From assembly GCA_017621495.1 (NCBI GenBank), contig JAGATB010000026.1, forward strand, positions 1 to 64,000: DNA of 64,000 nt, written 5' to 3'. Position 1 is the stretch's first letter. Every line of letters starts with the position of its first letter. The translations under genes were made by a program, and so were the position numbers. The notes beneath the pieces were generated by a model. It searched no databases, was not told the origin of the DNA, and saw only the letters and a list, made by a program, of their open reading frames with translations. Source of the stretch: Clostridia bacterium (GTDB taxonomy: Bacteria > Bacillota > Clostridia > UMGS1810). This document shows, one piece after another, positions 7,218 to 44,019 of this stretch.

Positions 7218-7230
7218 CAAAAACATCTCC

Positions 7231-15339: not shown

Positions 15340-18300
15340 CTACTGCCACAGAATGTTATAAATTAGTTCTGCCATTTGTGCACGAGTTGCAAAATCACCG
15401 GGGTTAAGTCTGCCATTTTTTAGGTTTATATAATTCCAACTCAGCATATCCGCCACATGCTGTTTTGCATAAGCGGATATTTCGCTGCCATCTGCAATAT
15501 CGGCAATTTCAATATCGTTTACGGTCACAGGCTCAAACGAAAACGGTATCGCCTTGGCAGCTATTGTAAGCATCTGTTCAACCGTAATAAAGTCGTCCGG
15601 CTTAAACAATCCTTCACTGTCACCGTTTACAATTCCCAGTGTACGTGCAGTTGAGATTTCTGCATATGCTTCATCCTTTTTATCCACATCTGCAAAATCT
15701 GTGTCACTTGCTTTAGATAAGCCGAGGCCCCGCATAAGTCCGTAAACAAATTCGCGTCTCGTAACATTGCCCTCGGGAGAAAATTTACCCTCAGTAACTT
15801 CAGCCATAAGCTCCTGCAATACAATCCTGTCTATCTTATCTCTGATATCATCGTACCCGCCCAAATCAGTAAAAAGCTCAGGTACGGTGGTATCTCCAAA
15901 AGATATATGTTCATTCTCCGAAGTCTTATGAGAGATTGATGTCCTTACTATCTCATAGTTTGATGCCTGATATTCCGCCGAGATGATAATTTTCTTAAAA
16001 CCGCTTGCTTCATCATAGACAGGGAGCATAGTGGTTCTCTGACCTGATGAATCCAATGCATATACAGCTATATCATCATGGGTTTTAAATACAATCTCAC
16101 CATCAACAGGCTCTACCAGAATTGGAGCGAGTCCGGCATTTTTTATTTTAAGACCCTTGTCTTCCAATACCATATTGGTATTTCTGGACATCTGTCCTAC
16201 TGCGGTAAGAAGAAGCCTGTCGGACTGCCATATGGGTTTATCCGTTACAGAACTTACAAACATAGTTGCAAATTCATTGTCAATATCAAAAATTACATCA
16301 TCAAGCTCAATCTGTGTGTTGCTGATTGCTCCTGTAACAGCCTGAGTATTTTTTGTGTTAACTTTAAAAGTATGAGTATTGTAATCGGTTACCATCTCTC
16401 CGGTCACAGAAACAAAGGGTTCGCCGTTATTCTTTGCCTTTTGAGCAAGATAAAGCACATCGTTATCGTTTTCATCCGGGTCATACGCAATTTCATCAAA
16501 CGCCATACCCATCTTACCGATAAGACCTATTGATACATCGGCAGATATAGTCTGATTGGCAGTGGTAAAGAACTGCTTATCTCTCCACCTTGTGTAAAAT
16601 CCCTTGTCTGCCTCGGTAACATCTCTTAATCTAATCATAGCCGCCGAGGGGAAGCATGCCATCATATGCGGCTGCTCTGCTATATTAAATATATTTAAAA
16701 ACGACCTATAGCCCACATCATACTGTCCCGGGGGGCGCTTAGCTCTAAGCTCACTCTGATTGACTTCACACCAAGAATAGAGCATAGGATGAAAATCCTG
16801 GAATGCCGACATCGCCGGTACTATGAGCATGGATTCCGACATGGTATAGCTGGGAAATACATCATTCCACTCGGACACAGTGTAGGGAAGTCCTCTGGTA
16901 AGCCTACCCAGCATATTACCAACATATGCAAGTGACGGTGCACTCTTTAGCATAGTGCTTGATGTAACCGTCTTGGCATTAGTTACCTTAGTACCAGTTG
17001 AAGGATGGGATTTATAGTTATGATAATCTATATAATCCATATCCAAATTTGAACTGAGAACAGCTCTTTGGTTTTTGTCCCATACAGTGTTACCGGTAAT
17101 CAGAGCTTTAATCCCCAGTGAACGCATATATTCATACAGTTCATTGTGAAATTCCCTCATAACAAATGACAGGAATTCATTTGAATCCGTCTGTCTCTGT
17201 TCAGAGTACAGAGCTCGTTTATCGTTTCCTTCAATCAGAACCGTTCCTGCCATAGGGTCTTCGGATTCTGCTAATCCGTTAACCTCTCCCCAAGCTTCAT
17301 TGAGGGCATTTCTAGTCTTGTATCTGTCAAGCAGCCATTTATTAAACTTTTCCTGCAAAAATGCCGTCTCTGCAGCACTGAAGGATTTGTTCTGTGATGT
17401 ACCTAAAAGACTTCTCTCGTTTACCAAATCTATAAATACTATCGCCGGATCTTCTGCAAGAGTTATATCCGTATATGGATTTTTAGTTGTAAACAATCTT
17501 TTTATATTGTTTTTGATAATCTCTTTATAACGTGGCTCTGCGTATACCGTGGTAGCCTGTGCCACCTGACCTTGGGTATTTCTGATATTGTCGTTTTCCA
17601 GTACAACATCGGCACAGGAAATATCTATCATGGTATATATACCGCGTTGTTTAAGCTCATTTATATAATAGAAAAGCAAATCCAGCTTTCTGTCATTAAA
17701 TGTCTGCGTATCACCCTGCATCTTACCGCCTTTACCGTCGTCAAACAGATTAAATCTGCCAAACAATGCATGGAAACGCACAAGGTTAAAGCCCATGCAT
17801 GCAAGTGCATCTGCACTCTCTACAGCGTCCTGATAGGAATTGGGTATGCTATACGTTATCGCGGCATTATACTGACTGAATACATTCACACCCCAGAACT
17901 TAGCCACAGTACCGTCATCAAATATGAAATCATCACCGACTGCATTTAAGTAACCATGCTTACCTGCAGGAGCGTCCAGCAGGAAGGATGCATCCATGGC
18001 GGTCCCCTTCATATTACGGTAGTCGGGATATGTATATGGGAACCACCTTGAGGTATCCGGGTTGGAATCATCTACTACCGTAGGAAGATAAGCTTTATCG
18101 CAAAGAGTAGCCGCTACAACCATTACAATAGCACCATCACCCGGAGTTGAAAGTGTAATGCTTTCTATCTCCAAATCGGGCTTGGGATTTTCACACGCAA
18201 AAGCAGACAAGCCTATTGAACCCGAAGACTCATTTGAGCCAAGCCATGCTGTCCTTGCAGTAGGAGAGTTTCCGGGAACCCACCAGTCAAAGATATCGGC

Positions 18301-18810
18301 ATTTGCACCGGTACCGCGAATGGGCACAGATTGCGAGGTGCCATCCGCATAGTTAAATGTGTACTCAGCTACAGTCTCAGCAGACCACGCCATTGCGTGA
18401 AGGAAATATACCACTGCGCCTTTCTTATTAACCGGTATCTGAACACTTGTAGGCAGAAATGCCCAGTTTTGCCCACGCAGTACAATGGCTGATTTACCAT
18501 CATTATCCTTGGGCTCTATTATGTTAAAATCCACTCCGCACAGGTGGTTTACTCCACGCAAGTCAAAGCTTGAAAAGTCATTCGCGGAGCCTTGGTCTGT
18601 CCAGCCACCAAGTCCATCGCCTGATATATCATCAGAAAAGCCTCTGTTTACCGCTTTGGTTATATCAAGCATTGTGAATTCACGATTCATGGCATTTATC
18701 TGCTCAACCGGAAGCTCTGTAATTTCAGCAGTTGCTGTAATCATACCGGCAGCAAGCATACACATACAAAGTACAAGGCATATAAACTTGTATATCAATT
18801 TTTTTCTCAT
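15340..18810 (-). CDS. Large SLH-anchored GH-A-like TIM-barrel glycoside hydrolase
   Basis: 1156 aa. Signal peptide (1-28), a beta-sandwich-like N-terminal region (about 45-245) that its paralog at 9929-12607 lacks, the shared LDAPAGKHGYL block (278-288), then the TIM barrel (FWGVN 305-309). Candidate catalytic pair: Glu465 after Asn464 in IDLVNERS, and Glu647 in YTVSEWND. A beta-rich domain (about 770-960) leads to three SLH repeats in the last ~180 residues (VTRREF, ITVEQM, ATRAQM). An extracellular endo- or exo-glycosidase on the S-layer is predicted, with unknown substrate and no confident GH family number. GAGGTG precedes the ATG; 23 bases follow the upstream gene. Confidence 0.8.
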   Translation of the reverse strand: MRKKLIYKFICLVLCMCMLAAGMITATAEITELPVEQINAMNREFTMLDITKAVNRGFSDDISGDGLGGWTDQGSANDFSSFDLRGVNHLCGVDFNIIEPKDNDGKSAIVLRGQNWAFLPTSVQIPVNKKGAVVYFLHAMAWSAETVAEYTFNYADGTSQSVPIRGTGANADIFDWWVPGNSPTARTAWLGSNESSGSIGLSAFACENPKPDLEIESITLSTPGDGAIVMVVAATLCDKAYLPTVVDDSNPDTSRWFPYTYPDYRNMKGTAMDASFLLDAPAGKHGYLNAVGDDFIFDDGTVAKFWGVNVFSQYNAAITYSIPNSYQDAVESADALACMGFNLVRFHALFGRFNLFDDGKGGKMQGDTQTFNDRKLDLLFYYINELKQRGIYTMIDISCADVVLENDNIRNTQGQVAQATTVYAEPRYKEIIKNNIKRLFTTKNPYTDITLAEDPAIVFIDLVNERSLLGTSQNKSFSAAETAFLQEKFNKWLLDRYKTRNALNEAWGEVNGLAESEDPMAGTVLIEGNDKRALYSEQRQTDSNEFLSFVMREFHNELYEYMRSLGIKALITGNTVWDKNQRAVLSSNLDMDYIDYHNYKSHPSTGTKVTNAKTVTSSTMLKSAPSLAYVGNMLGRLTRGLPYTVSEWNDVFPSYTMSESMLIVPAMSAFQDFHPMLYSWCEVNQSELRAKRPPGQYDVGYRSFLNIFNIAEQPHMMACFPSAAMIRLRDVTEADKGFYTRWRDKQFFTTANQTISADVSIGLIGKMGMAFDEIAYDPDENDNDVLYLAQKAKNNGEPFVSVTGEMVTDYNTHTFKVNTKNTQAVTGAISNTQIELDDVIFDIDNEFATMFVSSVTDKPIWQSDRLLLTAVGQMSRNTNMVLEDKGLKIKNAGLAPILVEPVDGEIVFKTHDDIAVYALDSSGQRTTMLPVYDEASGFKKIIISAEYQASNYEIVRTSISHKTSENEHISFGDTTVPELFTDLGGYDDIRDKIDRIVLQELMAEVTEGKFSPEGNVTRREFVYGLMRGLGLSKASDTDFADVDKKDEAYAEISTARTLGIVNGDSEGLFKPDDFITVEQMLTIAAKAIPFSFEPVTVNDIEIADIADGSEISAYAKQHVADMLSWNYINLKNGRLNPGDFATRAQMAELIYNILWQ

Positions 18811-18833: not shown

Positions 18834-21389
18834 TCACTTCTTGTATATAATTACTCTTACTGTACGCATTCCGGGCCAATTTGCAACATAGAACCATGCC
18901 TCTGTAGTTTCATTAGTCTCGCCCAGAGGTGAAATTTTGGTGGGTGGATTGGAAAAATTCACCTTACCGCCATCATCTGTCACCTCATATACAGTTATAG
19001 CATTACTGTAAAAAGGATAAACATCAGTTTCAGTGCCACCCACTATAAACTGAGCAGCATTCATATTGTGGAAAGCAAGTCCATCCGCTTTAAAGAATCC
19101 CGATGTCTTGTCATGTGCAAATTCATCTGTCTTCCACGTGTCTGTACCACCATTTAAATTATAAACTGACGACAACTGATATTTATCCTTACCAAGCCCT
19201 CTGGTCCTGTAACATATAAATGACGGAGCCACTATCTTTGAGGCTTTGTGAAAATCCTCACTGACCATAAGGGAGCCGCCGCCTGCAAGTACGTATTTCA
19301 CCTTTTCATCCTCAAGCATTCTTACGGAGGTAATCAATGCATAGTTATCTGTAGTGGTGAAAAGCTGATCTACATCTCCGGTAACCACCAATATATCCGG
19401 GATAGGATTGTACTTTATATCATAGTCAGAAACAAGGGTCACCGAACCCGTCATAGGCTTGGTTTTAATTAAATCTGAAACGAAGTTAAGCACCTTTACA
19501 GTGAATTCACCGTCTATATTGACCAGTGCATAGGTTTCAACATCACTGTACATTATACCATCAATATATGTATATGCAGTTTCAGTAAACTCCGAGCTTT
19601 TAGGATGGCTATGACCGTAATAGGGGATATAGTCAATCTTTTTAATTACATTTTCTGCATTTGCGGTGAATCTGAAAGCTCCGTGTCCGCTGTAATCAGC
19701 AGCGTGACTTGCTGCGTATTCAAAGCTTACGGGTGAATTTTTTAATTTATCATCAACAGTATAAATCTGCTCACCGGTAGTAGCGTCCATGTGGAAAATC
19801 TTAAGCTTGCGCTCCTTATCAAGGCCGCTCGTTCCCTCAGAAGCAGCTACCACTATACCGTTGAAGGTCCTTTCATCAATATAATCGGGGCTTATCCTCA
19901 TGTACCGCACCTGCATATTGTCATCAACAGCAATCTCCACGGGTTTACCGGAAAACTCAGAAATATCATAAGTGTTGCGATAGAGATTTACATCTTTTGA
20001 CAGATACAATGGATATACATCACCGAACTCGTAGGGCATCTCATCAATATATACCAAGCCATCTGTCTCTGAATATGCTGTCAGGGTACCGCTTATTCTG
20101 CGGCTTGATGCTACAAGTATGTATTCATCCTTGCGTTCATCGCACCAATAATCAAATACCATATCTGTTTCCAAAGCATATAAATCCTCTGCTGTATCAC
20201 CATCAATGATAACAGTGATTTCCTTGTCATTCAAACCTGCAAGAACTATGTCCGACTTTTCTCCGGAGGCATATTTAATCATTGACGGGTCAGAATGGAA
20301 TATTATACCGCCCTCATTTAAGGGATATACATACATGCGGCTTACTTTATCATTCTTCATCACCACTCTTGCAAAACAGTTTACAAGTTTATTGGCACCG
20401 CCCATCTGCTCATCGCCATAATACAGCTTTAAGTTATCTGTTTTGAATTCTTCATCTGCATTTTTAAAATACACTGTCTTTACCGAACCGGCAAAATATT
20501 TATTATCCGAATCCGTGTTTCCGTTTATATCGGTAATATAGTCATAGAAAAGCTCTATGCTATTATCATATTCGATGTAAACTATTTCGTTAGTAATGGT
20601 ATTGTAATACACAGTAGCTTCTTCATCTATCACATCAGAAATCTTAATTTTGTCACAAAGCTTATATGACTTTGAACTGCCGTCCTCAGTAACCATAATT
20701 CTGCGTCCGTCCTTGTCATCTATGCGAACATCACCAATCATGGTATCTATATGATGGTAGTCTGTAAGCACTGTCTGCTCTTTTGACACCTTGTGTATCA
20801 CTTCAGAACCGTAGGTTTCTGTCATAAGTTCAACTTCCAGTGCATTATCAAGCATTCTGAACAGTTCAATGTATGTGATGCCGGCATTAACATCTGCATC
20901 CATACCGTAGAGAAGGTCCGACTGATAAGCCACAGTAAGGTAACCCGACGGATAGCCGCCCCTTTGAATAGCAGAGGGTTTATATCCCAATGCTGTTACA
21001 AGCATCTTCACTGCATCACGGCACAAGAGTTCATCTTCATATGCAAAGTTACCGGTGCCGTTGCCCTCAATCAGTCCCAAATCCTGTCCTATTGCCACAT
21101 AGCTTTCATAGTCATGTTTGATATGAGAATCGGCAAATGATGAATTATCATCTCCTGTAACATCAAATCCCAGGTACTCTACGATTATTTTGATGCCTTC
21201 TGCTCTTGTAACAACATCATCAGCTTCAAATCCATCATCTGTGTATTCTTCTCCTATTACACCTAAAGCACATAATTTATCAAGCATTGATAAATCGCTT
21301 GCATCCATATCCGTCTCAGCACCGGCCGCCGGAAAAGCACTCGGAAGAATCATTATCAAAGATATAATAAGTGCAAGTATTTTTTTCAT
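18834..21389 (-). CDS. N-terminal SLH protein with long unknown C-terminal region
   Basis: 851 aa. Signal peptide (about 1-24) followed immediately by three SLH repeats (about 30-200: VTRAEGIKIIVEYLGF, LCRDAVKMLVTALGY, ITYIELFRMLDNAL). The remaining ~650 residues are Asp/Tyr-rich, predicted beta, with no recognised family or catalytic motif. They contain many short units of the type GxVxxxx-D-x-x-x-Y. The anchor at the N-terminus projects the unknown part outward, the reverse of the hydrolases in this operon. The architecture matches the 39398-42073 product in the second operon, which suggests a common structural or binding role. The start has AAGGAG. I do not recognise a function. Confidence 0.8.
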   Translation of the reverse strand: MKKILALIISLIMILPSAFPAAGAETDMDASDLSMLDKLCALGVIGEEYTDDGFEADDVVTRAEGIKIIVEYLGFDVTGDDNSSFADSHIKHDYESYVAIGQDLGLIEGNGTGNFAYEDELLCRDAVKMLVTALGYKPSAIQRGGYPSGYLTVAYQSDLLYGMDADVNAGITYIELFRMLDNALEVELMTETYGSEVIHKVSKEQTVLTDYHHIDTMIGDVRIDDKDGRRIMVTEDGSSKSYKLCDKIKISDVIDEEATVYYNTITNEIVYIEYDNSIELFYDYITDINGNTDSDNKYFAGSVKTVYFKNADEEFKTDNLKLYYGDEQMGGANKLVNCFARVVMKNDKVSRMYVYPLNEGGIIFHSDPSMIKYASGEKSDIVLAGLNDKEITVIIDGDTAEDLYALETDMVFDYWCDERKDEYILVASSRRISGTLTAYSETDGLVYIDEMPYEFGDVYPLYLSKDVNLYRNTYDISEFSGKPVEIAVDDNMQVRYMRISPDYIDERTFNGIVVAASEGTSGLDKERKLKIFHMDATTGEQIYTVDDKLKNSPVSFEYAASHAADYSGHGAFRFTANAENVIKKIDYIPYYGHSHPKSSEFTETAYTYIDGIMYSDVETYALVNIDGEFTVKVLNFVSDLIKTKPMTGSVTLVSDYDIKYNPIPDILVVTGDVDQLFTTTDNYALITSVRMLEDEKVKYVLAGGGSLMVSEDFHKASKIVAPSFICYRTRGLGKDKYQLSSVYNLNGGTDTWKTDEFAHDKTSGFFKADGLAFHNMNAAQFIVGGTETDVYPFYSNAITVYEVTDDGGKVNFSNPPTKISPLGETNETTEAWFYVANWPGMRTVRVIIYKK

Positions 21390-21411: not shown

Positions 21412-24400
21412 TTAGTATCTGGTAATTACTTCATATATTATTTTTGCTGCCATTGCACGGGTCACGTCACCGCAGGGGTCAAATCTGTTGTCTCCGACTC
21501 CGTTAACTATACCCATATTATAAAGCTTTGTCACGCTTGAAGCGGCATATGCAGCCATAATATCATTATCAGCAAACACACCATCTGACGTACTGTCGCC
21601 CGCCTCAATACCCTTCAAGTCAAGAATATTTGATATAATAACACACATATCCTGTCTGGCTATATATTCATTGGGGCCGAAAGTGCCGTCCGGATAGCCG
21701 GATATGATTTTGTTTGAGCTTGCATTCACAACATCGGCATAATACCAGTCACCGGAATTTACATCGGCAAATTCCGAAGCAGTCTCGGAAGCTTTGATAC
21801 CAAATGCATCTATTACCATCGTTACAAGCTCCGCTCTGGTAACGTTATTTCCCGGGCGGAAGGTGCCGTCTGAATAACCGCTTACAAAACCGTTATCATA
21901 AAGATACTTTATACTTTGTGCAGCCCATGGCACGGAATCAGCATCTTTAAGCGGTGTTTTCACAGGCGGTGTAATTACAGATGGACTGTTGCCGCTGCCG
22001 TTTGACTTGTTGGGCCTTTTGCCGCCGACATCCGAATCGGTGCTGTCCGAACCGGTATTTGATGAAGCAACAGTTGCGATTATGTTCACAGAGGATTTAT
22101 CTGCCGAAATATCATATGTGTTGTCTCCTATTGCGACTTTTTGTGTGCCGCTGATACTAAGCTCACTTGTACCGCTGATTACGGGATTAAATGTGATGCT
22201 GAATAAATCACCCTGTAAAACGCACGGCTCCGAAGCATCAAAGGTTATTTTAATTACACCTTCGTTGTCAGCATCAACCTGTGCACCGGAAATTGCGTCG
22301 GAAAGTGTCACACTTTCAGCCGTGGTGTTCAAGTAGGCGGGGTTATAATTCAAGCTGTACTCTATACTCGTAATCGGTGCAGATAGTACATCTTTTTCGT
22401 CAATACTTACCTTTGCCGTCACAGCCGAACCGTCCGAGCCTGACGCACAGTTCATACTGAGAATCTGCTTAGGTAATACAGCTGTTTGCACCTGCTGAGA
22501 GCTCGTCGTAAAGTTAATCTTTATCGGTGATGAGAGCACATAGCCATCTTTGGATATGACAGATGATACATCAAGCTCATATGACTGACTTGCACCGAGT
22601 GCCTCCGCAAAGTAAATGCGATATACTCTGCCCTCACCCTGACCTACGATATCATATTCCGCATCGCCGGATACAAGCCTTACATTACCGGCAAATGATG
22701 ACATATCCATGGGGTCACTGAAAGTCAACTCTATACCGTCTATAGAATCAGTAAGAACACCTTCCGATTCGGTTATTTCATTTTCACCCGAAACATAGCG
22801 GATATCAGATACTATGGGTGCTGTACCTGTCGATATGGCAACATTGGCAATATATGCCTTTGCTTCGTTGGTATTTTTACTGATATCAGATGTAACAGAA
22901 ATACTCTGTATTGCCGAAAAATCAAATTCACTGCGATAGAAATCCCCATATGCAGATGCATAGTATAATCCCTCACCGGGGAAATCACTCAAGGGTATAG
23001 ATACAAATGCCCATTTGCCCTTCTCCGATACATAATCCTCTAAAGGTACCCTGCTTCTTAAAACAAATGTTCCCTTTGTAAGCTTTGTAGAATATGACAG
23101 TGTTGCATAAAGAGTATCTTCATAAGTTTCCTCAGGTATGTAAACGTTCATTTCAAGTGCCGCAGTTCCTGTACGCAATGAAGATAAATCAAGAGGTGTG
23201 ATACATTCAAATCCGGAAGACGTTTCATCAGCTCCGTCATATATAAATGTAAGCTCCGCACAAGGCAGGTTATCCATAATTACATCTTCTATATCAGCAT
23301 CCAGAACTTCAAATTCAAATCCACTCAGAGTTTTATCATCATAAATTCTGTGTTTATATTCTCTGCTTAAATCAAGATAATTAACATATACCGGGTCTGT
23401 AAGCCTGGATTTGTTATCCAACGCATCCTTGGCCATAATCTGATAGCTATAACAAGTATTGAGATCACATTGTGTGTCTGTGTACGTGTTATCCGCGGTT
23501 TGTGCTATCACATCGCCATTACGGTAAACATCATATATCACCGCATCCTCTATCAGATCCCAGCTTATTTCTACCGAGGTATCTTTTTGTGCTGCGGTTA
23601 CATTTTCCGGATATGCCACGAGCCTTACAACCACAGATACACCGGGCGTTACGTTTGACATATCACCATCAGCAGCCACACTCTGTATAGAATATGTATA
23701 CTCTCTGTAATCCTCCAAAGAATCATCATCTACATATGAGTTTACACCATAATCAACTCTTGCTATCTCATCACCGTCACGATAAATTATGTATTCCTTG
23801 CAGTCTCCAAACAAAGGGTCATCCCATGTGAGCTCTGCGGCGATACTGTACTTAACGGGAGCTGCCGCAAAATTCACCGGCTCTCCTATGGTCGTGACAG
23901 AGACCTCTTTGGAAGCAGACATTGGCGATCCGGTAAGGGAATTATAATCAATTGCCCGCACAGAATATGAATATGTATTACCTATCTGTACATCTGTGTC
24001 TTTGAAATCCTCGCCCTTTGTCACACAGTCCACTAATGTCCCATCTTTGTAAATCTCAAACATAGCAGCATCAATTATGTAATCATTCATCACAATGTTT
24101 ATTTCATTTTGCCCCGGAACAACACTAAAATCCGGAGTTGGCATAGTATTCTTTAAATCATCGGAGTTATATACAAACACATTGCTCATCGCTCCGATAA
24201 CCGGTGCCGTATAATCAGAGCTCTCCAGCTTATAGCCTATACCAAAGGCAAGTATACGGGCAAAATTAATTGAAGCGGTGCCGATTCCGAAAAGATTGGG
24301 CGCATCTGCAAATGCACTTAAAGGCACTTTAATCCTCTTTATGCTTCCCACATCCTCCTGAGAATAATAAGGTGCCAATGGTATACCAAATACATCATTC

Positions 24401-24942
24401 TGGAAAGAGTCATTCGCTCTTCCTGTAATAATCATCAGATCATCAACATTGGCTGCAGCATAGTTACCATCGGTGCTTGAGTCTCCTCCCAGCCAGATAT
24501 CGGCAACAAAAAATGCCTTATCCAGATATGAGCTTACATTAAGCTCACGCCATGACGGACTCACACCTGCAGCATTTCTGGCTCTGGAACCCAAAGAACC
24601 CATCGTCATCTTGTTTAACGGAAGATTAAATATAATCATATTTTCATCCGGAAAATAGCAGTCCTCGTCCAATAGCTGTCTGGAAATTTCTGCACCGTTA
24701 TAATCAAAGGTTTTGCCGCCATAGGTACTTTTGTTATTCTTCACTTTAGATTTAAAAGTATCCCATGGTGCAAAAGCCCAGCTGCCGTTTTCCACAGCAG
24801 TCTCCGACATATGATCCCTTATGATAACAGAACGTATGGGGAGCTCGTTTTCTCCCGGCAAAGCACTCGCTGTAAATGTAATTCCTGTAAGAAGTGTTAA
24901 ACCTAATGTTAAGCTCAATATAATGCATAAAAATCTCTTCAT
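21412..24942 (-). CDS. Multidomain SLH surface protein with FN3 and cohesin-like domains
   Basis: 1176 aa. Signal peptide (1-28); a jelly-roll-like N-terminal region (about 35-270); three fibronectin type III domains (about 275-530, repeated YxIYRDGDxIA pattern); a second jelly-roll-like region; a Big_5-type Ig-like domain (VLTDSIDGIELTFSDPMDMSS); and a cohesin-like domain (ITSIEYSLNYNPAYLN, then GVIKITFDAS). A low-complexity linker containing GKRPNK leads to three SLH repeats in the last ~180 residues (VTRAEL, IARQDM, VTRAMA). No catalytic site was recognised, so it looks like a binding or scaffold fibre. The start has AAGGAAGG; the transporter gene ends 38 bases upstream. Confidence 0.8.
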   Translation of the reverse strand: MKRFLCIILSLTLGLTLLTGITFTASALPGENELPIRSVIIRDHMSETAVENGSWAFAPWDTFKSKVKNNKSTYGGKTFDYNGAEISRQLLDEDCYFPDENMIIFNLPLNKMTMGSLGSRARNAAGVSPSWRELNVSSYLDKAFFVADIWLGGDSSTDGNYAAANVDDLMIITGRANDSFQNDVFGIPLAPYYSQEDVGSIKRIKVPLSAFADAPNLFGIGTASINFARILAFGIGYKLESSDYTAPVIGAMSNVFVYNSDDLKNTMPTPDFSVVPGQNEINIVMNDYIIDAAMFEIYKDGTLVDCVTKGEDFKDTDVQIGNTYSYSVRAIDYNSLTGSPMSASKEVSVTTIGEPVNFAAAPVKYSIAAELTWDDPLFGDCKEYIIYRDGDEIARVDYGVNSYVDDDSLEDYREYTYSIQSVAADGDMSNVTPGVSVVVRLVAYPENVTAAQKDTSVEISWDLIEDAVIYDVYRNGDVIAQTADNTYTDTQCDLNTCYSYQIMAKDALDNKSRLTDPVYVNYLDLSREYKHRIYDDKTLSGFEFEVLDADIEDVIMDNLPCAELTFIYDGADETSSGFECITPLDLSSLRTGTAALEMNVYIPEETYEDTLYATLSYSTKLTKGTFVLRSRVPLEDYVSEKGKWAFVSIPLSDFPGEGLYYASAYGDFYRSEFDFSAIQSISVTSDISKNTNEAKAYIANVAISTGTAPIVSDIRYVSGENEITESEGVLTDSIDGIELTFSDPMDMSSFAGNVRLVSGDAEYDIVGQGEGRVYRIYFAEALGASQSYELDVSSVISKDGYVLSSPIKINFTTSSQQVQTAVLPKQILSMNCASGSDGSAVTAKVSIDEKDVLSAPITSIEYSLNYNPAYLNTTAESVTLSDAISGAQVDADNEGVIKITFDASEPCVLQGDLFSITFNPVISGTSELSISGTQKVAIGDNTYDISADKSSVNIIATVASSNTGSDSTDSDVGGKRPNKSNGSGNSPSVITPPVKTPLKDADSVPWAAQSIKYLYDNGFVSGYSDGTFRPGNNVTRAELVTMVIDAFGIKASETASEFADVNSGDWYYADVVNASSNKIISGYPDGTFGPNEYIARQDMCVIISNILDLKGIEAGDSTSDGVFADNDIMAAYAASSVTKLYNMGIVNGVGDNRFDPCGDVTRAMAAKIIYEVITRY

Positions 24943-24980: not shown

Positions 24981-25832
24981 CTATCCTTTCACAGCTCCTG
25001 CAGCCAATCCCGAAATAAAATATCTGTTACCGAACAAATAGAATATAAGCACTGGTACCAGAGCTATTACTGTACCTGCAAGCATCAAATTCCAGCTCGC
25101 TGCCGCTTCACCGGTAGACTTAAGAGCAGTGATACCTACTATAAGTGTTCTCTGTTCGGGATGGTTTATTGTAAATATTGTAGGCAACATATACTCATTC
25201 CACGAAGCCTGGAATGCCAAAAGACCTATTGTAGCTAAAGTGGGCTTCATAAGAGGTATTATAATTCTAAACAATATGCCTCCAAAACCCAATCCGTCCA
25301 TTTTGGCTGCTTCATCCAGTGAATACGGAAGCTGCTGTATGAAACTTCGTGTTATATAAATATTTACGATATTTACAGAGAAAACTCTTACAAGCATAAG
25401 CGACCATATGGAACTGGTGAGGTTTATTTTACCCAAAACCTCAAATGTGGGATACACGCCAACACCTACAATATGTATAAACATGGTTGCCGAAAACAAG
25501 GCAAGCCACAGCTTTTTAAGAAAAAACTTACCTCTGGCAAATGCATATCCCGCCATAGACGAGGTCATTATTGTAGCGAAAACATATACTCCTGTATAAG
25601 CAATACTGTAAAAAAGCATCATGCCCACCTTGAAATTTTCCGATTGCCATGCCTGTATATAGTTATCCACAGTAAATTCCTTAGGCCAGAATGTTTCGGG
25701 ACTGCTAAGCAGCTCCGAATTGGTCTTAAACGAAGAAACTACAGTGTAAATAATCGGAAACAACGCAAACAGTGCCACCGCCAACAAAAATATCATTGTA
25801 ATAATATTTGAAATTCTCTTTTTTGTTTTCAT
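24981..25832 (-). CDS. Carbohydrate ABC transporter permease (MalG-type)
   Basis: 283 aa with six predicted membrane segments, the first at about 12-32. The EAA loop that docks the ATPase is clear: EAAKMDGLGFGGILFRIIIP. The last residues (GNRYFISGLAAGAVKG) are the usual MalG-type C-terminus. It forms the heterodimeric channel with the 25845-26813 product. The gap to that gene is 12 bases. No ATPase is encoded nearby, so a shared MsmX/MsiK-type ATPase elsewhere is expected. Confidence 0.95.
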   Translation of the reverse strand: MKTKKRISNIITMIFLLAVALFALFPIIYTVVSSFKTNSELLSSPETFWPKEFTVDNYIQAWQSENFKVGMMLFYSIAYTGVYVFATIMTSSMAGYAFARGKFFLKKLWLALFSATMFIHIVGVGVYPTFEVLGKINLTSSIWSLMLVRVFSVNIVNIYITRSFIQQLPYSLDEAAKMDGLGFGGILFRIIIPLMKPTLATIGLLAFQASWNEYMLPTIFTINHPEQRTLIVGITALKSTGEAAASWNLMLAGTVIALVPVLIFYLFGNRYFISGLAAGAVKG

Positions 25833-25844
25833 ACTTTTTCATCC

Positions 25845-26813
25845 TTAATAAATATTCTGCAATCTGGCACTTAATTTAGAATAACCAAATGCTATAAATC
25901 CAAGTATAACGGCTGAAATCAACGACAACGAAGAGCCATAGCCGATATTGGGCATAATCTCACCGGTGAAGAAACCGGGTGCAAAGTTGTGAGTAAGATA
26001 TGAATTCACCGTAAATGTGCCTCCTGCAGGTGCACCGTTTGTCAGTACCAATATCAAATCATTGGTCTGAAGTGAGCCTACTATTGAAAGCAGCAACACT
26101 GTCTGAAGAACAGGTGCAATCATAGGTAATGTAATTTTAAAGAACATAGTCACGGCACCGGCGCCTTCGAGCCTTGCGGATTCATACAATTCCTCAGGCA
26201 CATTAGCAACAGCGGCAGAGAAATACAGCACGTTCATACCGAAAGTGTTCCATAACGAACACAAAATTACAATAGCCATTGCCGTACCTCTGTTTTCAAA
26301 CCAATTGATGTTTGTTTCTACAATTCCAAGCTTCATTAAAAAACCGTTTATTATACCGAAATAATCAAACATATTGGAAAAAATCAAGCCTATTATAGCC
26401 ACACTTATAATATGAGGCAAAAAGTACAATGCACGAAAGAAATTACCAACTTGCTTTAATTTGGAAAGCACAACGGCTATACACAGAGCAAGAGGCAATT
26501 CAAGACATATCTTCACCACTGCAAACAATATAGTATTTTTCCATGCTTGCCAATACATAGGCTCATTTGTAAAAATCTTAATGAAATTATCAAGACCCGT
26601 AAACACTGTATCGCTTGGTGTCAGGTTATAATAGTAAAATGCCCAACGGAAAGTCCAGATTATAGGGTAGATGGTAAGAACCAAAAACCCTATAATCTGA
26701 GTTGCTATAAGTAAATAGCAGGTTATATTTTCCGATATGGTATCTTTTTTCAAAGAATTTCCGCCAAATGTTTTTCGGCTTTTAAGTGTCATATGCATGT
26801 CGTTTGAACTCAT
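25845..26813 (-). CDS. Sugar ABC transporter permease (MalF/UgpA-type)
   Basis: 322 aa, slightly long for the family because of a ~30-residue polar N-terminus before the first membrane helix (CYLLIATQIIGFLVLTIYPI). It has six predicted membrane segments and an EAA loop ESARLEGAGAVTMFFKITLP. It is the partner of the downstream permease. GGAGGTC precedes ATG 26813, and 27 bases separate it from the binding-protein gene. Confidence 0.95.
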   Translation of the reverse strand: MSSNDMHMTLKSRKTFGGNSLKKDTISENITCYLLIATQIIGFLVLTIYPIIWTFRWAFYYYNLTPSDTVFTGLDNFIKIFTNEPMYWQAWKNTILFAVVKICLELPLALCIAVVLSKLKQVGNFFRALYFLPHIISVAIIGLIFSNMFDYFGIINGFLMKLGIVETNINWFENRGTAMAIVILCSLWNTFGMNVLYFSAAVANVPEELYESARLEGAGAVTMFFKITLPMIAPVLQTVLLLSIVGSLQTNDLILVLTNGAPAGGTFTVNSYLTHNFAPGFFTGEIMPNIGYGSSLSLISAVILGFIAFGYSKLSARLQNIY

Positions 26814-26840
26814 AGTTGACCTCCTCTAAATACACTTTCA

Positions 26841-28241
26841 TCATTTACGTTTTGTATTCCAGTCGGCAAGAATAAAGGTATCCAGCTTCTCATCGGTATG
26901 TGCTTCATAATACGCAGTGGTAGCTGTATTAACTTCAGCAGTATATTCATTTATCATTTGTTTCGCCGAAATTTTGCCGGACCATACTTCATTTACAAAT
27001 CTATCCTGCATTGCAGCGGAGATTTTTGACGAATCATTTGAAGGAGTATTAGGATAGGTTTCACTGATTTTTAAAAGCTCAGCAAATTCCTTCCAACCTT
27101 TCTTAGCATTTTTAAAATCTGCTTTGTCAATTAATTCGCTGAATATAGGAAGCTCTACACCTGCATTCAGCTTCTTAATCATAAATTCATCACTTGCCAG
27201 GAATTTGTACACCTCCAAAATAGCCTCAGCTCCAACTGTTTCGAGTGCTTTGCTGTTTATCCAAGGAAGTACAGAAGTCTGTGAACGCTGCATGTAGGTA
27301 TCCTTTGTATCCAGAACCGGTACCGGAGCCACACCCCAGTTTATATCTGCGGGAAACTGGTCATTGTATACACCTACGTCAAAAGACATAGCAAACTTCA
27401 TACCTACTCCACCTGCCGCAAAGCGAGCACGAGCGGCATCATTGTCCAGAGATTCTGCTCCGGGATAATAACTGTTATCTTTCTTTATACCCATAAAAGT
27501 TTCTGCAATAGGTATCAGCTTATCATACTCGTATTTACCTTCAACAGGGTTCCAACCGGGATGCCCCGCAGACGCCATCATTGCGTAAGCGATATCATGA
27601 TTAAACCATCCACTCCACTTCATGGGCAATATGATACCGTATTCTTTCTTTTTCGGATTAGTAAGCTTCTTTGCATACTCTCTTAACTCTTCATATGTTT
27701 TCGGTGGTGTGGGGTTGCCCTTCTTATCCACAAGACCTGCAGCTTTAAACATATCTTTATTATAAACAAGAGCCTGTGTAGTAACAGCAACCGGCAATGT
27801 GTATGTACCGTTATACTTCTCCGAAAGCTTACCGGGTCTTATAACCGGCTCGTATTTTTTTAATAGCTCCTCACTTCCCGGGATATCTTCAAGAGGAATT
27901 ATATATTTGCTTTCTGCAAGTCTCATGGCATTACCACCGGTAAAAAGCTCCGGAGCATCTCCAGATTGCAGAGCAACCTCAATACTCTGATTTAAGGTGT
28001 CGCCCTCTTTTACGATATACTCAATTTCTATTCCCTTTTCTTTTCCTGTGGTGTTGTTCCATTCATTGATGGCATCCTGATACACATCTTTGCTATGCGA
28101 ATCGGTGCTCCAAATTGTAACAACCTTCACATCCTTGTTTGCTGCCTTTTTGCCACCGTCAGAGCAGCCTGTCACGCCAAAGAGCACGCAGACCGACATT
28201 GCAAGTGCCGCAGCCCTCTTCAAACAACCATTGATTTTCAT
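26841..28241 (-). CDS. Extracellular sugar-binding lipoprotein (SBP family 1)
   Basis: 466 aa from the ATG at 28239-28241, chosen because GAAGGGAG lies about 7 bases upstream and the resulting N-terminus is a proper lipoprotein signal (lipobox VTGC, Cys26). A longer frame reaches back to 28304 but would bury the signal and cross the -10 box at 28276-28281. The mature part shows the SBP_bac_1 pattern: VVTIWSTDSHSKD, NQSIEVALQSGDAPELFTGG and TYEELREYAKKLT. It captures oligosaccharides for the two permeases that follow. It is the first gene of the 22.9-kb operon and divergent from the histidine kinase. Confidence 0.95.
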   Translation of the reverse strand: MKINGCLKRAAALAMSVCVLFGVTGCSDGGKKAANKDVKVVTIWSTDSHSKDVYQDAINEWNNTTGKEKGIEIEYIVKEGDTLNQSIEVALQSGDAPELFTGGNAMRLAESKYIIPLEDIPGSEELLKKYEPVIRPGKLSEKYNGTYTLPVAVTTQALVYNKDMFKAAGLVDKKGNPTPPKTYEELREYAKKLTNPKKKEYGIILPMKWSGWFNHDIAYAMMASAGHPGWNPVEGKYEYDKLIPIAETFMGIKKDNSYYPGAESLDNDAARARFAAGGVGMKFAMSFDVGVYNDQFPADINWGVAPVPVLDTKDTYMQRSQTSVLPWINSKALETVGAEAILEVYKFLASDEFMIKKLNAGVELPIFSELIDKADFKNAKKGWKEFAELLKISETYPNTPSNDSSKISAAMQDRFVNEVWSGKISAKQMINEYTAEVNTATTAYYEAHTDEKLDTFILADWNTKRK

Positions 28242-28275
28242 ATTAAAACTCCCTTCAATATTAGTTCTTACATTT

Positions 28276-28304
28276 ATTTTAAACCATTTGCTATGCAACA
28301 TCAA
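28276..28304 (-). promoter_or_regulatory. Promoter for the 28241-5383 operon
   Basis: Minus-strand TTGATG (28299-28304), 17-base spacer, TAAAAT (28276-28281), about 35 bases before the lipoprotein start. A short inverted repeat AGACA-5-TGTCT (28306-28320) abuts the -35 box and could be a regulator site. Confidence 0.7.
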
Positions 28305-28336
28305 GAGACAAAATCTGTCTTATTTTATATTAGATA

Positions 28337-28365
28337 TTGAAATTTTCTTTAATTTAGGTTATTAT
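28337..28365 (+). promoter_or_regulatory. Promoter for the histidine kinase/response regulator pair
   Basis: TTGAAA (28337-28342), 17-base spacer, TATTAT (28360-28365), about 37 bases before the kinase start and divergent from the transporter promoter. Confidence 0.7.
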
Positions 28366-28401
28366 AAGTGTAGAAAGCAATATGCCGGAGGTGAATACGA
28401 T

Positions 28402-29878: not shown

Positions 29879-30556
29879 ATGGATAATATCAGAATTATTA
29901 TTTGCGATGATGCACTATACTGGTGTGATTTTTTTGAAAAGGCTGTGAAATATGCTCCCGATATCAAACTTATAGGAACATGCCATACATCCAAAGAATG
30001 TATGGAACTTATTAAAAAAGAAATGCCGGATATCCTTTTGCTTGATATACAGTTGGATTCCGATACAGAGGGGCTGGAAATACTTCCTGATATTTATAAT
30101 ATAATGCCCGGTCTCAAAATAATAATGCTAACAAGTTTTGATGATGAAGACTATATTTTTTCCGCTTTTTCTCAGGGGATTTCTGATTATGTACTTAAAT
30201 CAGCGCCTTTGGACGAAATGTTTAATTCAATTCGAGCTGTATACAATAATACCACAAGACTGCGTCCTTCTACCGCAAATGTAATAACGAAAAAAGCCCG
30301 GGAGATTAAAGAAAGCCAAAAATCTCTGCTGTATATATTTAATAAAATGATAAAATTGTCTGCATATGAATTTGATGTATTAAAATCTCTATACTACGGT
30401 AAAACGATAAAAGATATAGCATCTTACAGAGTAATTGAAGAAAGCTCAGTAAGACGAACCATATCAAGAATACTTGCAAAATTTGATGCAGACTCTACAA
30501 AAGAGCTGTTAAAACAGCTTCATGAGCTTAAAGTTTTTGAATTATTTAAAGAATAA
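29879..30556 (+). CDS. Response regulator with C-terminal helix-turn-helix
   Basis: 225 aa. The receiver domain has the acidic pair Asp10/Asp11, phospho-acceptor Asp56 (LLLDIQL), Thr85 (MLTSF) and Lys107 (YVLKS). A linker leads to a NarL/LuxR-like DNA-binding helix-turn-helix (about 160-215: LSAYEFDVLKSLYYG, IKDIA, SSVRRTISRILAKF). AGGAGG lies 9 bases before the ATG, and the gene immediately follows the kinase. Likely target: the divergent transporter/surface operon, by position only. Confidence 0.92.
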   Translation: MDNIRIIICDDALYWCDFFEKAVKYAPDIKLIGTCHTSKECMELIKKEMPDILLLDIQLDSDTEGLEILPDIYNIMPGLKIIMLTSFDDEDYIFSAFSQGISDYVLKSAPLDEMFNSIRAVYNNTTRLRPSTANVITKKAREIKESQKSLLYIFNKMIKLSAYEFDVLKSLYYGKTIKDIASYRVIEESSVRRTISRILAKFDADSTKELLKQLHELKVFELFKE

Positions 30557-31608: not shown

Positions 31609-31621
31609 TGTGCAGCACCCC

Positions 31622-39397: not shown

Positions 39398-42073
39398 TTA
39401 TTGTTCATATACAACAGCCAATGCTATACCACTTGCTTCTCCGGCATAAATATAAATCTTATCACCGGGAGCGATATCGCCTGCGGAGATTGATTTAACC
39501 TCACCCTTCTGTCCGAATCTGATAATATTCGTAGAGGAATTAAACGGAACTACACGAGTGTATATTTCACTGCCGGTCGAAGCGGATACGAGCATCCTTA
39601 TACCGGTTTCTATATTTGCATCTACGATACCATATGCGGAGTATCTCTGCATGTAGTAATAGTCGGCTACAGGTCTGCTGGTGGTATCTGCCCAGAGCTC
39701 ATAGCTATCGGCATATTTTACTCTCAGCATGACCTCCAAGCCACGTATTTCACCATCGGCACCTGCGTTATAGCAGATAATATCTCCTTCATCCAGTGCG
39801 GAGAGCTTGATTTTGAAGATTTCACTGTTTTCCTCCTTATAGTAAGGGTCTTTGGTCTTATTTGTGATTACGTTCTCCATATCACAGATAGCTTCATTAT
39901 CATCACTGTAGAGTGTCACTTCTTTGCCTCCGGTAACCACTGTAATTGCTTCACTCTCTTCGCCCTCGGAATTCATCATGGTCTTGATGCGTTTAACTAT
40001 ACCCACAGGTGAAGACTTGTCTATGCTGGTCACACCATCGGCAGGTATTACCACTACCTTGACCTTATTGGATTCACTTTCGTCATAAATCTTTACATTG
40101 CCGTAGAAGGTTTCATTTACCAGACCGCCGTGACCTATTATGGAGAACTTTTTGTCCTCGTCAAGGTCTGTAGGTATCAGAAACACCTTGGTATCATCAT
40201 CCAGGAGGTATCTGCCTGCAAACATCTTCCAGTTTTTTCCTATATATCTGGTAGCTCTGTTGGTATCGCCCACAAACGCTGCCTCCAAAGTAAAGAACTC
40301 CTGCTTCTCTGTATAATCCATGAGAGCACCGCCGGTCTTGGCAACATCAAACTCGGTGATGAAGTCATCTGCATTGGCATTGTAAGCTATAAGCTGCGGC
40401 TTGGGCTCTTCGCCGTCAAACAAGCCGGTGTTTGATTTAATATCCGAGGCTTTAATGCTGTCTCCGGAATTAATCATCTTTACCTTATCCTTAAGAGTGA
40501 ATATCTTAAGCTCGCCGTCTTCGGTGAAGATTTCAAAGGATACGGTGCTGTCAAGACCGTTGCCTATACCTATATCTCTCAAAAATCCATACTTGTATCT
40601 TACATCGCTGTCCACATAGGCTACCTTGCCCAGGTGATTTATATAGAATTCACCCTTGGTACCTACCTTCACAGCAGATGAGCCATAGAGCTTGGAGGTG
40701 AGCTCATACTCGGTATCGTCTATGGTGATATAATTATCGCTAAGCGATGCGCATGTACCTACCACAGTATCCACACCGGCTACGAGCTTTGCCACGGTAC
40801 CGTCAAGGCTTATGGCAGCAGAGAGCATACTGCCCTTTGTAATGCCGGTAAGCTCCATTTCATTGCCGGAAGCATCGGTAATCAGGTACTTAAGGTTGCC
40901 CTTGGTACTGAAATCCAGCTTTGCCGGTACAGAACCGGATTTAAAGTAAACGGTCTCATCCTCTGCAGATACACTGTTTACTATTAAATCGATATATTCG
41001 TCTGCAAAGATTATATCATATTTACCGCCGTTGTCACTGCTTAAAAGTCTGATTGTGCCGTTTGTAACCTTTTTAAGGTCCTCTACACCCCAGTTTACCT
41101 TAGCCATGCCGTTATAAATCAGATATCCGTTTGTGAGGTAATCCGCATCACGGTTTTTGCCGGATTCATCTGTATAAGTAATAGTGCCGTCTGTGATTTT
41201 CACCACGTCATATGAGCTTACGGTAAGCTCTGTCTTGTCATCATAATCCGCTCTCTCTATAGCACGGATTCTGTTGGTATCGTCTATATATGCCTTTACC
41301 TGCATGCCCAGGTAATCAGCTGCATTATCCTTGGAGGATATGTACACCTTGCGTGAGATTTCAATCTCGTTTTCATCAAGATTGCTTGCAGAAGCAAGAC
41401 CTGTATAATAGTTGGAAGTAACCTGTCCTTCTACAAGGGTAAGGTCAAGCACTGAGTTTAAAAGATTGGTACCCTTAGCTACGGTGAACATGGATTCATC
41501 ATTGCTTACACCGCTTATCTCCATAATATCTGCATCCAGGGTGTTTCTCACTGCATAAGCAAGCTCACCTACCGTAACTGCATCGGGATTATCAAAGGTG
41601 ACACCCTTTAAAATGCCCGCCTTGGCAGCAGCGGACATATATGCCGCGTAATCGCCGCCGTGGTAATCTGCTATGGCATCATAGCCTATGAGCCTGGTCA
41701 TAACTATGGTAACCTGAGTGGAAGTTATATATCCGTAGGGGTCAAACTTTATATCCGAGTAGCCCTTCATGAGACCTGTCTGGTATGCAGACAGGATATA
41801 TCCCGAACGGGGGTCATCCGCCTTGACATCGTCAAAGGGAGTATCCATAGGACTTTGCTGCTGTCCGCCGCGAGCCATTACCGCAATCTGCGCCAGGGAG
41901 CCTCTGTCGGCAGGAGCATTGATATCCTCTACGCTGTTCATAAGTCCCAGGTCTATGAGAAACTGAACCGCTTCTTCATATGCCGGGTCAATCTCTGCCT
42001 GCTGTGCCGCATATACCGGCAGTGTGCCTGCAAAGAGCACTATGCATAAAACTATAGCCAATAATTTCTTCAT
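39398..42073 (-). CDS. N-terminal SLH protein with long unknown C-terminal region
   Basis: 891 aa from ATG 42073, whose A is shared with the TGA of the preceding gene (TGATG) and which has AAGGGG 9 bases upstream. Signal peptide (about 1-23), then three SLH repeats (about 30-195: RGSLAQIAVMARG, ITSTQVTIVMTRLIGY, VTVGELAYAVRNTL). The remaining ~700 residues form a long beta-rich region with many acidic and Tyr residues and no recognised motif. The design and length are the same as the 18834-21389 product, with conserved transition after the third SLH repeat (LDADIMEI / LEVELMTE). No function recognised. It is translationally coupled to the secreted multi-module protein before it. Confidence 0.8.
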   Translation of the reverse strand: MKKLLAIVLCIVLFAGTLPVYAAQQAEIDPAYEEAVQFLIDLGLMNSVEDINAPADRGSLAQIAVMARGGQQQSPMDTPFDDVKADDPRSGYILSAYQTGLMKGYSDIKFDPYGYITSTQVTIVMTRLIGYDAIADYHGGDYAAYMSAAAKAGILKGVTFDNPDAVTVGELAYAVRNTLDADIMEISGVSNDESMFTVAKGTNLLNSVLDLTLVEGQVTSNYYTGLASASNLDENEIEISRKVYISSKDNAADYLGMQVKAYIDDTNRIRAIERADYDDKTELTVSSYDVVKITDGTITYTDESGKNRDADYLTNGYLIYNGMAKVNWGVEDLKKVTNGTIRLLSSDNGGKYDIIFADEYIDLIVNSVSAEDETVYFKSGSVPAKLDFSTKGNLKYLITDASGNEMELTGITKGSMLSAAISLDGTVAKLVAGVDTVVGTCASLSDNYITIDDTEYELTSKLYGSSAVKVGTKGEFYINHLGKVAYVDSDVRYKYGFLRDIGIGNGLDSTVSFEIFTEDGELKIFTLKDKVKMINSGDSIKASDIKSNTGLFDGEEPKPQLIAYNANADDFITEFDVAKTGGALMDYTEKQEFFTLEAAFVGDTNRATRYIGKNWKMFAGRYLLDDDTKVFLIPTDLDEDKKFSIIGHGGLVNETFYGNVKIYDESESNKVKVVVIPADGVTSIDKSSPVGIVKRIKTMMNSEGEESEAITVVTGGKEVTLYSDDNEAICDMENVITNKTKDPYYKEENSEIFKIKLSALDEGDIICYNAGADGEIRGLEVMLRVKYADSYELWADTTSRPVADYYYMQRYSAYGIVDANIETGIRMLVSASTGSEIYTRVVPFNSSTNIIRFGQKGEVKSISAGDIAPGDKIYIYAGEASGIALAVVYEQ

Positions 42074-44019
42074 CACTCTGCCCCCTTCAATTCAATTCCC
42101 TCTACATAGGGTTCGCCTGTGTCTTTGTCCCAAAGTACCGCTGCTATCACGGAGCCGTCATTATTTGCAAAATCTGCCGGCAATGTCATAGTAACTGTGA
42201 AAGGTACATTGCTCTCATCCGGCTCAAGTGCCACAAGTGATGCCGGTACATAAGACAACATACGTTTATAATCCGCCGAGTACAAAATCAACGCCATCTC
42301 AAGATTAACAGTGCTTTGTGCCATGCTTGTAACCTTTGCACTAATGGATATAACATCATTTGCGCTGAGAGACGATAAATCAGCAACAGCTTCACCGTCT
42401 TTGGTAATCTCAAATCCCGATACTTGTACGTCTGATGCTGTGAAAGCCTTTTCCACACTTGCACTGTTGCCCAACCTGTCATATGCATTGACCTTAATGT
42501 TAAGCTTCTTAAGAGGAGCTACATCAGGAAGTGTGATTGTATTACTGTCGGAGGGATACTTTTCTCCGTTAACTGTATACTCATATACGAGGTAATTATT
42601 TTCACCGTCATCGGCAATCGGGAAGGTTATATCACATTCACCATCAGCATACTCCACCTCTATGTCTGCAGAGGAAGCAAACTTCGGTGCAGCGACGTCA
42701 ATATATGCAATCGACTGAATATCGGCATAAGTTGTTCCTTTGCCGGGTGAGTAATTCTTATCCTCTGTAATAATCATACCCTGGAAGTTAGCGCTGTTGC
42801 TTCCGCCCACCTTGATTTTGAGCTTGTGGAGGCCGGGTGTGAGACTAAAGCCCTCGGCAAACTTATTCCAACCCATGCCGCCGCTTGTTACCGTGTGTAC
42901 TGTAGACTGAGCAAAAACGTCACTGTCATCGAATGCCACATATATGGGTCTGGCAGGATCACTTCTGCCGGCAGCCCACAGGTAGTATGTCTTGGGGGCA
43001 CCGCCATCACGTCCGTTGACTATTATATGAGCAGTGGCATACGCTGCACTGTCATATCCGGGAGTTGACATATTGGTAGATATACCCGGTAAGTTGGTAT
43101 CGCCATCAGCAAGCATGGAGTAATAATTAGCAGCACTTGCCTGATATTGCCAGCCTGCCAGGTCGGAAGTAATCGATATATTGTCACATCTCAAAAACAA
43201 GGTTTCCGGCGGCTGTGCACCGGTAATTTCAAATTCAATCGCTGCGAAGCTGCCTGTGTAATCGGTAGCTGTAAGCTTGACCGACTTAGTACCGTAGAAG
43301 CTCTTTAACGTCACAGGAGCAGTGATATCATCAATCACTGTTTCCTTGCCCTCTACAACATATGAATACACTATATTGCTGCTGTCATAATTAACAACCT
43401 GAGGGAAGGTAATCACACAGTCTGCTCCGCTCAATTCATACTGCGGTGCTGCATCGGAAGCAAATTCCGGTACAGAGTCACTGTAATATGCCATAAGCTC
43501 ATCATCTGTTTCCACTGTGGGTGTGTAGTCCAAATCATCGGTAATATACACAGCATTAATCAAGGTATTCTTCCAGCTGTTGCATATACCCAGGTTTATT
43601 TCATGCCAGCCTGCTTCAATAGTCCAGGTGGTCTTATCCCACTGATGGCTCTTGTGGGCTGTGAGCATCTGTTCCTCCTGAGAGTCTACAATCACCTTGC
43701 CGTAACGGTCTGCAACTCCGTTTTCGTTACCGCTGAGCACCCATATATTGTAGGTTGCTGTCTCTCTGAAATATATCTTGGCTTTGGAGTATCTTACGTT
43801 GCCGTCTGCTGCAATCTTCATTGATTTGGGGAAGAGGTTGTTAGTGGCAGCGCCGCCATTATTTATATAACCACCGTTAGAATATGCAGGAACGTCAAAG
43901 TTGTCACCGTTTAAAAGGATATTGAAGCCCTCCGCACTCGCCATCAAGGGCATAGCTGCAAGGAGCATCATAATGCAAAGGAGCCCGGAGAGGAGTCTTT
44001 TGTTTTTAATTTTCATCAT
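42073..44019 (-). CDS. Secreted multi-module binding-like protein, unanchored
   Basis: 648 aa with a signal peptide (about 1-29, MASA-E). Module B (about 32-190: ILLNGDNF to YITDDLDYTP) and module A (about 275-430: CDNISITSDLAGW to GMIITEDKNYSP) both look like jelly-roll carbohydrate-binding modules, each followed by an Ig-like domain (YSYVVEGKETVIDDITAP; YEYTVNGEKYPSDSNT). A final ~100-residue Ig-like domain ends the protein. Modules A and B recur in swapped order in the 45824-48613 product. No SLH, sortase or catalytic motif. The ATG overlaps the TGA of the SLH gene upstream (ATGA), with AAGGGGG 8 bases before it. Confidence 0.75.
   Translation of the reverse strand: MMKIKNKRLLSGLLCIMMLLAAMPLMASAEGFNILLNGDNFDVPAYSNGGYINNGGAATNNLFPKSMKIAADGNVRYSKAKIYFRETATYNIWVLSGNENGVADRYGKVIVDSQEEQMLTAHKSHQWDKTTWTIEAGWHEINLGICNSWKNTLINAVYITDDLDYTPTVETDDELMAYYSDSVPEFASDAAPQYELSGADCVITFPQVVNYDSSNIVYSYVVEGKETVIDDITAPVTLKSFYGTKSVKLTATDYTGSFAAIEFEITGAQPPETLFLRCDNISITSDLAGWQYQASAANYYSMLADGDTNLPGISTNMSTPGYDSAAYATAHIIVNGRDGGAPKTYYLWAAGRSDPARPIYVAFDDSDVFAQSTVHTVTSGGMGWNKFAEGFSLTPGLHKLKIKVGGSNSANFQGMIITEDKNYSPGKGTTYADIQSIAYIDVAAPKFASSADIEVEYADGECDITFPIADDGENNYLVYEYTVNGEKYPSDSNTITLPDVAPLKKLNIKVNAYDRLGNSASVEKAFTASDVQVSGFEITKDGEAVADLSSLSANDVISISAKVTSMAQSTVNLEMALILYSADYKRMLSYVPASLVALEPDESNVPFTVTMTLPADFANNDGSVIAAVLWDKDTGEPYVEGIELKGAE

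Follow-up and report, generated by a model that had tools for sequence, protein, structure and literature searches.

The described proteins closest in layout to the gene studied here are the SLH-type S-layer proteins (Bacillus anthracis Sap and EA1, Geobacillus SbsB, Paenibacillus alvei SpaA), in which a signal peptide and an SLH trimer are joined to an acidic, beta-rich tail; in the Bacillus SLH S-layer proteins the tails are Ig-like, not OB-folds. SLH-anchored glycoside hydrolases, such as those of Paenibacillus sp. JDR-2 (PMC4765114) and Cel5I (PMC4976890), are likewise extracellular and belong to carbohydrate loci, and they carry recognisable catalytic and carbohydrate-binding modules. In Bacteroidota, SusC and SusD form a two-gene surface pair that is repeated and diversified from locus to locus. 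The Clostridia proteins described here, which bear their SLH repeats at the N-terminus (N-SLH), are similar in length to the first group, have members of the second as gene neighbours, and resemble the third in genome logic. Unlike the S-layer proteins, they occur as many diverged copies within sugar loci, paired with a protein bearing C-terminal SLH repeats (C-SLH), and one of their modules is predicted to be an OB-fold rather than Ig-like; the tails of the family have no sequence similarity to those of solved S-layer proteins. In contrast to SusC/SusD, there is no sequence relation, no outer membrane and no tie to a given transporter, and Pfam finds no TonB-dependent transporter or SusD-type domain in the pair proteins. 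Within the parts of the open PMC literature covered, neither the pair nor an SLH S-layer protein with an OB-fold was described, although an earlier mention may exist.

The window, a stretch of 64,000 nucleotides, comes from a draft genome of 2.2 Mb assembled into 40 contigs. The gene under study, P0001, lies on the minus strand (the plus-strand reading of the same coordinates is full of stops), and a second family member, its twin P0002, lies in another operon of the window. The features referred to below are as follows.

15340..18810, minus strand: GH42/GH5-like hydrolase, 1156 aa, with a C-terminal SLH trimer (Pfam; synteny)
18834..21389, minus strand: P0001, 851-aa N-SLH protein (ORF and translation; profile-profile comparison with shuffle controls)
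19602..19922, minus strand: P0001 residues 490-596, predicted OB-fold module (AlphaFold2 pLDDT 72.8, pTM 0.66; VIA-align)
20520..20777, minus strand: first beta module of the P0001 tail (strands at local pLDDT 55-75 in the low-confidence full-length model; matching module repeats in the family profile)
20820..21302, minus strand: degenerate SLH trimer of P0001, about residues 30-190 (residue columns against 32 core and 41 paired relatives)
21412..24942, minus strand: P0001 partner, 1176 aa, with three C-terminal SLH repeats and Ig-like domains (Pfam; synteny)
24981..28304, minus strand: two permeases and the binding protein of a sugar ABC transporter, in the P0001 operon (translations read; NCBIfam and SBP_bac_1 matches of the binding protein)
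39398..42076, minus strand: P0002, 892-aa N-SLH protein, twin of P0001 (ATG at 42073; iterative HMM search)
42073..44019, minus strand: secreted protein, 648 aa, without SLH repeats, between P0002 and its partner (Pfam; translation)
44016..45752, minus strand: P0002 partner, 578 aa, bearing three SLH repeats at its C-terminus and separated from P0002 by one gene (Pfam; partner alignment A3)

P0001 begins with a signal peptide (MKKILALIISLIMILPSAFPAAGA), continues through three degenerate SLH repeats (~30-190) and ends in ~650 residues in which predicted strands are abundant. The first-pass annotation had described this layout, and had noted that P0002 (892 aa from GTG, 891 from ATG) shares it together with its length; both observations stand. 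So does the reversed anchor order of the hydrolase at 15340-18810 in the same operon, which lies directly downstream of P0001, carries its three SLH repeats at the C-terminus, and has a homologue at the same place in three other loci (L029-L031). The further argument, that an N-terminal anchor displays the tail outward, does not discriminate, because a C-terminal SLH anchor exposes the remaining protein equally well. Pfam gives one sub-threshold SLH match on P0001 (16.9 bits, cut-off 20.8), NCBIfam gives no match, and a PDB sequence search yields two weak SLH matches, to Sap only (E 0.06). None of these searches matches the tail, in agreement with the earlier reading, which had recognised no known enzyme or binding motif.

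A direct comparison would have separated the two window proteins: in BLASTP only the SLH part is common to P0001 and P0002 (E 0.019), and the tails give no signal, which taken alone seemed to be the absence of similarity after the SLH repeats that the first-pass annotation had named as telling against its pairing of the two. Profile-profile comparison reverses this picture. A profile of 19 paralogous tails of this genome (A1) matched a profile of P0001 and its orthologues (A2) with E 4.5e-16, and with the SLH part removed the match remained at E 3.9e-16, score 132.6, over 585 colinear columns (each E-value refers to one comparison); as controls for the tails-only score, 50 column shuffles never exceeded 20.3 and reversing the alignment gave 14.5. 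From this score and its controls we conclude that the two tails are homologous and that P0001 is a very divergent member of the N-SLH family. P0002 was assigned to the family by iterative HMM search and P0001 by the controlled profile-profile comparison, and both proteins combine colinear tail homology with N-terminal SLH repeats.

The family is large. This genome holds 24 copies, 22 in annotated loci and two on contigs C11 and C13, and the 16 genomes examined from the same taxonomic family all have between 4 and 50 profile matches. Across a sample of Clostridia, 83 of 291 genomes have a match, and these fall into 18 group-coded families. Another two Clostridia genomes yield 52 and 46 matches, including a few that are split pieces of one gene. 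Besides this one, only 14 genomes of a phylum-wide sample match, mostly partially; the relatives retrieved from these are for the most part N-SLH proteins 780-1075 aa long. Two single-protein queries found no foldable relatives in viral contigs. The tails of 19 members have no fitting Pfam or NCBIfam model, and in this sense the family is uncatalogued. Two 'S-layer homology domain-containing proteins' of Monoglobus pectinilyticus (WP_320691001.1 and WP_320691516.1), whose records are annotated by the SLH domain only and assign no function, are members.

Most copies come with a partner. Of the 23 non-core copies in this genome, 19 (two of them in addition to 17 annotated ones) have a C-SLH gene at most three genes upstream, for which a rough binomial estimate of chance is 2e-23, assuming 27 such genes among 2000. 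In all sampled genomes the partner is the direct neighbour in 37 of 41 paired cases, and the median intergenic gap of adjacent pairs is 17 bp. The exceptions here are three non-core copies without a C-SLH neighbour (two in L009, one in L012) and L012:15917-19531, where the C-SLH gene is downstream instead of upstream. P0001 lies 22 bp from its 1176-aa partner, which is upstream; this gene order is found again in L029 and L030, from other Clostridia assemblies, and L031 has the same order downstream. P0001 has the most divergent tail, and its partner is also unusual. In the short partners the SLH repeats are canonical and the body is unrecognised (Pfam; partner alignment A3). WP_320691516.1 is preceded, with an overlap of 8 bp, by a 2068-aa protein with three C-terminal SLH repeats (the M. 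pectinilyticus pair is UL127_RS11255, 2068 aa, and family member UL127_RS11260), and five family members occur in a genome that is ~98.6% identical, across the region compared, to the M. pectinilyticus record. Tail and partner-body distances in this genome are correlated (r 0.52, or 0.59 when the short partners are taken by themselves; 0 of 5000 permutations as high), and the SLH part of the N-SLH copies and that of their partners are uncorrelated in distance (r 0.09); joint duplication can account for part of this co-divergence, and may account for all of it. Family, pairing and expansion, taken on their own, we regard as practically certain.

Phage or host immunity could have driven variation of the coat, the copies being antigenic variants for which the sugar loci are no more than a vehicle, as their long branches and high number would allow. 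This is highly improbable, as the copies are tightly linked, in several family groups, to a co-diverging second wall protein, and pairing is almost wholly limited to the non-core copies.

That limitation is seen on a tree of 84 tails (FastTree; deep joins unsure), on which the label 'C-SLH gene upstream' changes 5 times against 28.3 in shuffles. A strongly supported core clade of 34 forms has short branches and at most one sampled copy per genome, with genomes of one taxonomic family mostly grouped together, whereas the non-core copies sit on long branches. The core form appears to be single-copy and vertically inherited; the fast-diverging copies, both window genes among them, sit in carbohydrate loci. 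In this genome the core form is L013:7113-9734 (contig C28, 873 aa), outside the sugar loci, with codon adaptation at the 99th percentile; all remaining copies fall between the 24th and the 90th, and P0001 (82nd) and P0002 (87th) are not exceptional. Cysteine averages 0.03% in four core sequences against 0.72% in 41 paired copies, the same four core sequences have an average pI of 4.6, and the M. pectinilyticus core form (UL127_RS07915) has rodA, mltG, a WecB/TagA/CpsF transferase and ribosomal genes as neighbours. The SLH part of the core profile matches B. anthracis Sap (E 3e-11). Low cysteine and high codon adaptation are also features of SLH-type S-layer proteins, and by cysteine, pI, codon adaptation and gene setting the core form looks like an S-layer protein. 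Beyond the window, L026:6064-7902 (contig C10) encodes an N-SLH protein of 612 aa in which a class 3 lipase domain is recognised; N-SLH proteins of about this length are divergent neighbours of the core member in Monoglobus and other families.

The first-pass annotation had taken retention in both operons to argue for a core role. Retention does point to a general role of the family, for which the 24 copies and the 19 of 23 pairings are a far stronger pointer; for the window genes the core designation fails, the core member being L013:7113-9734 and P0001 and P0002 being diverged sugar-locus copies.

The residues that anchor the protein have been kept in part. Groove G2 of P. alvei SpaA is the main pocket for pyruvylated wall polymer and uses SLH1 Arg43, SLH2 Gly29 and SLH3 Trp13 (PMC6081394). 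The P0001 trimer retains the Arg and the Gly and has Tyr at the Trp position; among paired copies the Arg is present in 37 of 41, the Gly in 32 of 41 and Tyr at the Trp position in 35 of 41. By comparison, SLH3 Arg43 is found in 10 of 41 paired and 28 of 32 core forms, and SLH2 Trp13 in 13 of 41 and 31 of 32. As the G2 residues are kept in most copies, one wall-polymer groove seems to be preserved, judging by residue counts on the alignment. Both window proteins have a signal peptide and the residues of one groove, and the genome encodes csaB (TIGR03609, 255.7 bits, cut-off 213.1), whose product pyruvylates the wall polymer.

Structure prediction and fold search, proposed in the first-pass annotation, succeeded for one module: AlphaFold2 gave a pLDDT of 31.7 for full-length P0001 (4 sequences), while residues 490-596 modelled with orthologues reached 72.8. 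This model is a barrel of order b-b-b-a-a-b-b, as in an OB-fold, two short helices standing where the OB helix lies. Foldseek returned nothing below E 0.01; VIA-align gave a best Z of 8.9, values near 8 being borderline by the tool's own note, and its recognised rows are nearly all OB-folds (PriB, SSB, CusF, AB5 B subunits). It is the agreement of these matches on one fold, not the Z value, that leads us to propose, with modest confidence, that this module of the P0001 tail is an OB-fold. Off-diagonal matches of the family profile against itself (best E 2e-5, uncorrected) suggest a tail of about four similar modules, and a PDB sequence search with the tail profile gave chance-level matches only. 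The OB-fold does not indicate a function.

The surroundings of the pairs are carbohydrate loci, as judged from neighbouring sugar-enzyme, ABC and AraC domains: near the copies in this genome we find ABC permease, solute-binding, BNR, GH88, GH39, GH3, GH2, rhamnosidase, CBM9 and AraC domains, and in relatives additionally heparinase-like, GH20, GH28 and GH5 domains. We considered the pair as a subunit of a sugar ABC importer, which is ruled out by two genomes (G005 and G006) with 45 and 50 family matches and one and no SBP_bac_1 protein, respectively; from this near-absence, the pair tracks the extracellular sugar enzymes rather than the importer. The two genomes come from a related genus that apparently lacks sugar ABC binding proteins of the usual kind.

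Several other genes of the window merit a record. Between the sugar operons and on the opposite strand, 28090-29865 and 29879-30556 (plus strand) read as a histidine kinase and response regulator. A glycyl radical enzyme (31622-33793) and its radical-SAM activase (30724-31656) are on the minus strand; the former matches a PFL-like family and falls far under every NCBIfam named-substrate cut-off. Also on the minus strand, 48637-51603 and 51627-54239 encode adjacent secreted proteins of ~900 aa, alike by eye, whose only match is a C-terminal sialidase-like CBM (one below cut-off), the rest being unrecognised, and 42073-44019 and 45824-48643 encode secreted proteins with apparently common repeated modules (e.g. 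around NNAGWTYSAAANNYYSMLNDGTANLPGI), for which Pfam gives a weak golvesin-like match or none. At the end of the P0001 operon, 5383-8274 (minus strand) encodes a DUF1861 protein, a DHDPS-family aldolase and a BNR-repeat protein, which suggests a sialic-acid or host-glycan theme.

Of the roles that the first-pass annotation had put forward, scaffold, receptor and glycan tether are all possible, and the evidence tilts toward an S-layer-type structural or assembly role that it had not named. The strongest rival is a glycan receptor pair, in which the P0001 barrels would bind the polysaccharide of the locus, like surface glycan-binding proteins or SusD, and pass it to anchored hydrolases, with the C-SLH partner as a second binder or spacer. 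Location in carbohydrate loci and fast divergence are what ligand specificity would predict, and the predicted OB-fold resembles, among others, the glycan-binding AB5 B subunits; most of the OB-fold matches, however, bind nucleic acid or metal, so that the fold says little. In Pfam, neither P0001 and P0002 nor the 19 family tails match a CBM or lectin family, copy number does not track ABC binding proteins, and a conserved core homologue outside the sugar loci better fits a structural ancestor. We consider a receptor pair rather unlikely. A tail that docks the SLH-less secreted hydrolases of the locus, as a scaffoldin would, is more doubtful still and, in our estimate, improbable: several secreted locus proteins do lack SLH repeats, the tail modules are repeated and the P0001 partner has Ig-like domains, but the main hydrolases of the P0001 operon bear their own SLH repeats, and the scanned proteins match neither cohesin nor dockerin (for cohesin, P0001, P0002, the 1176-aa partner and the 19 tails; Pfam). 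P0001, P0002 and the 19 tails also have no catalytic domain in Pfam or NCBIfam.

The most economical account is that the copies originate from a duplicated S-layer-type protein. An ancestral protein of this kind would have duplicated repeatedly, its copies joining sugar loci with a C-SLH partner. A protein of the P0001 type would be exported by Sec and held on pyruvylated wall polymer by its one remaining SLH groove, presenting a chain of small beta modules, one of them a predicted OB-fold. Most sugar-locus copies would be co-produced with the partner encoded just upstream, and the two may assemble on the wall into a patch or lattice specific to the locus, which would keep the SLH-anchored hydrolases encoded there in place and spaced and would admit glycan; switching on a sugar locus would then also alter part of the coat. 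For this mechanism as a whole, with P0001 and P0002 as sugar-locus paralogues of an S-layer-type protein that form a locus-specific assembly with their partners, we see the chances as evenly balanced. Its extension is tentative, and we hold it with less than even confidence: that in many Clostridia the coat is set by diet, each sugar locus encoding its own S-layer-type tile and C-SLH partner. Such a system would have been built by duplicating a core coat protein that has OB-type modules, and in its genome logic it would be what the SusC/SusD expansion is, but in Gram-positive bacteria.

How polysaccharide is captured at the surface of Gram-positive bacteria, which have no outer membrane, is much less clear than in Bacteroidota. 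With members in more than a quarter of the sampled Clostridia genomes, up to ~50 copies per genome and a partner in the sugar loci, this family is a concrete candidate for part of the capture machinery, and it can be tested in Monoglobus pectinilyticus, a cultured species bearing both the core and the paired form. The family seems to derive from a conserved cell-coat protein, and the location of most copies in sugar-digestion clusters, beside a second wall-anchored protein, suggests that these bacteria alter part of their coat according to the sugar they eat.
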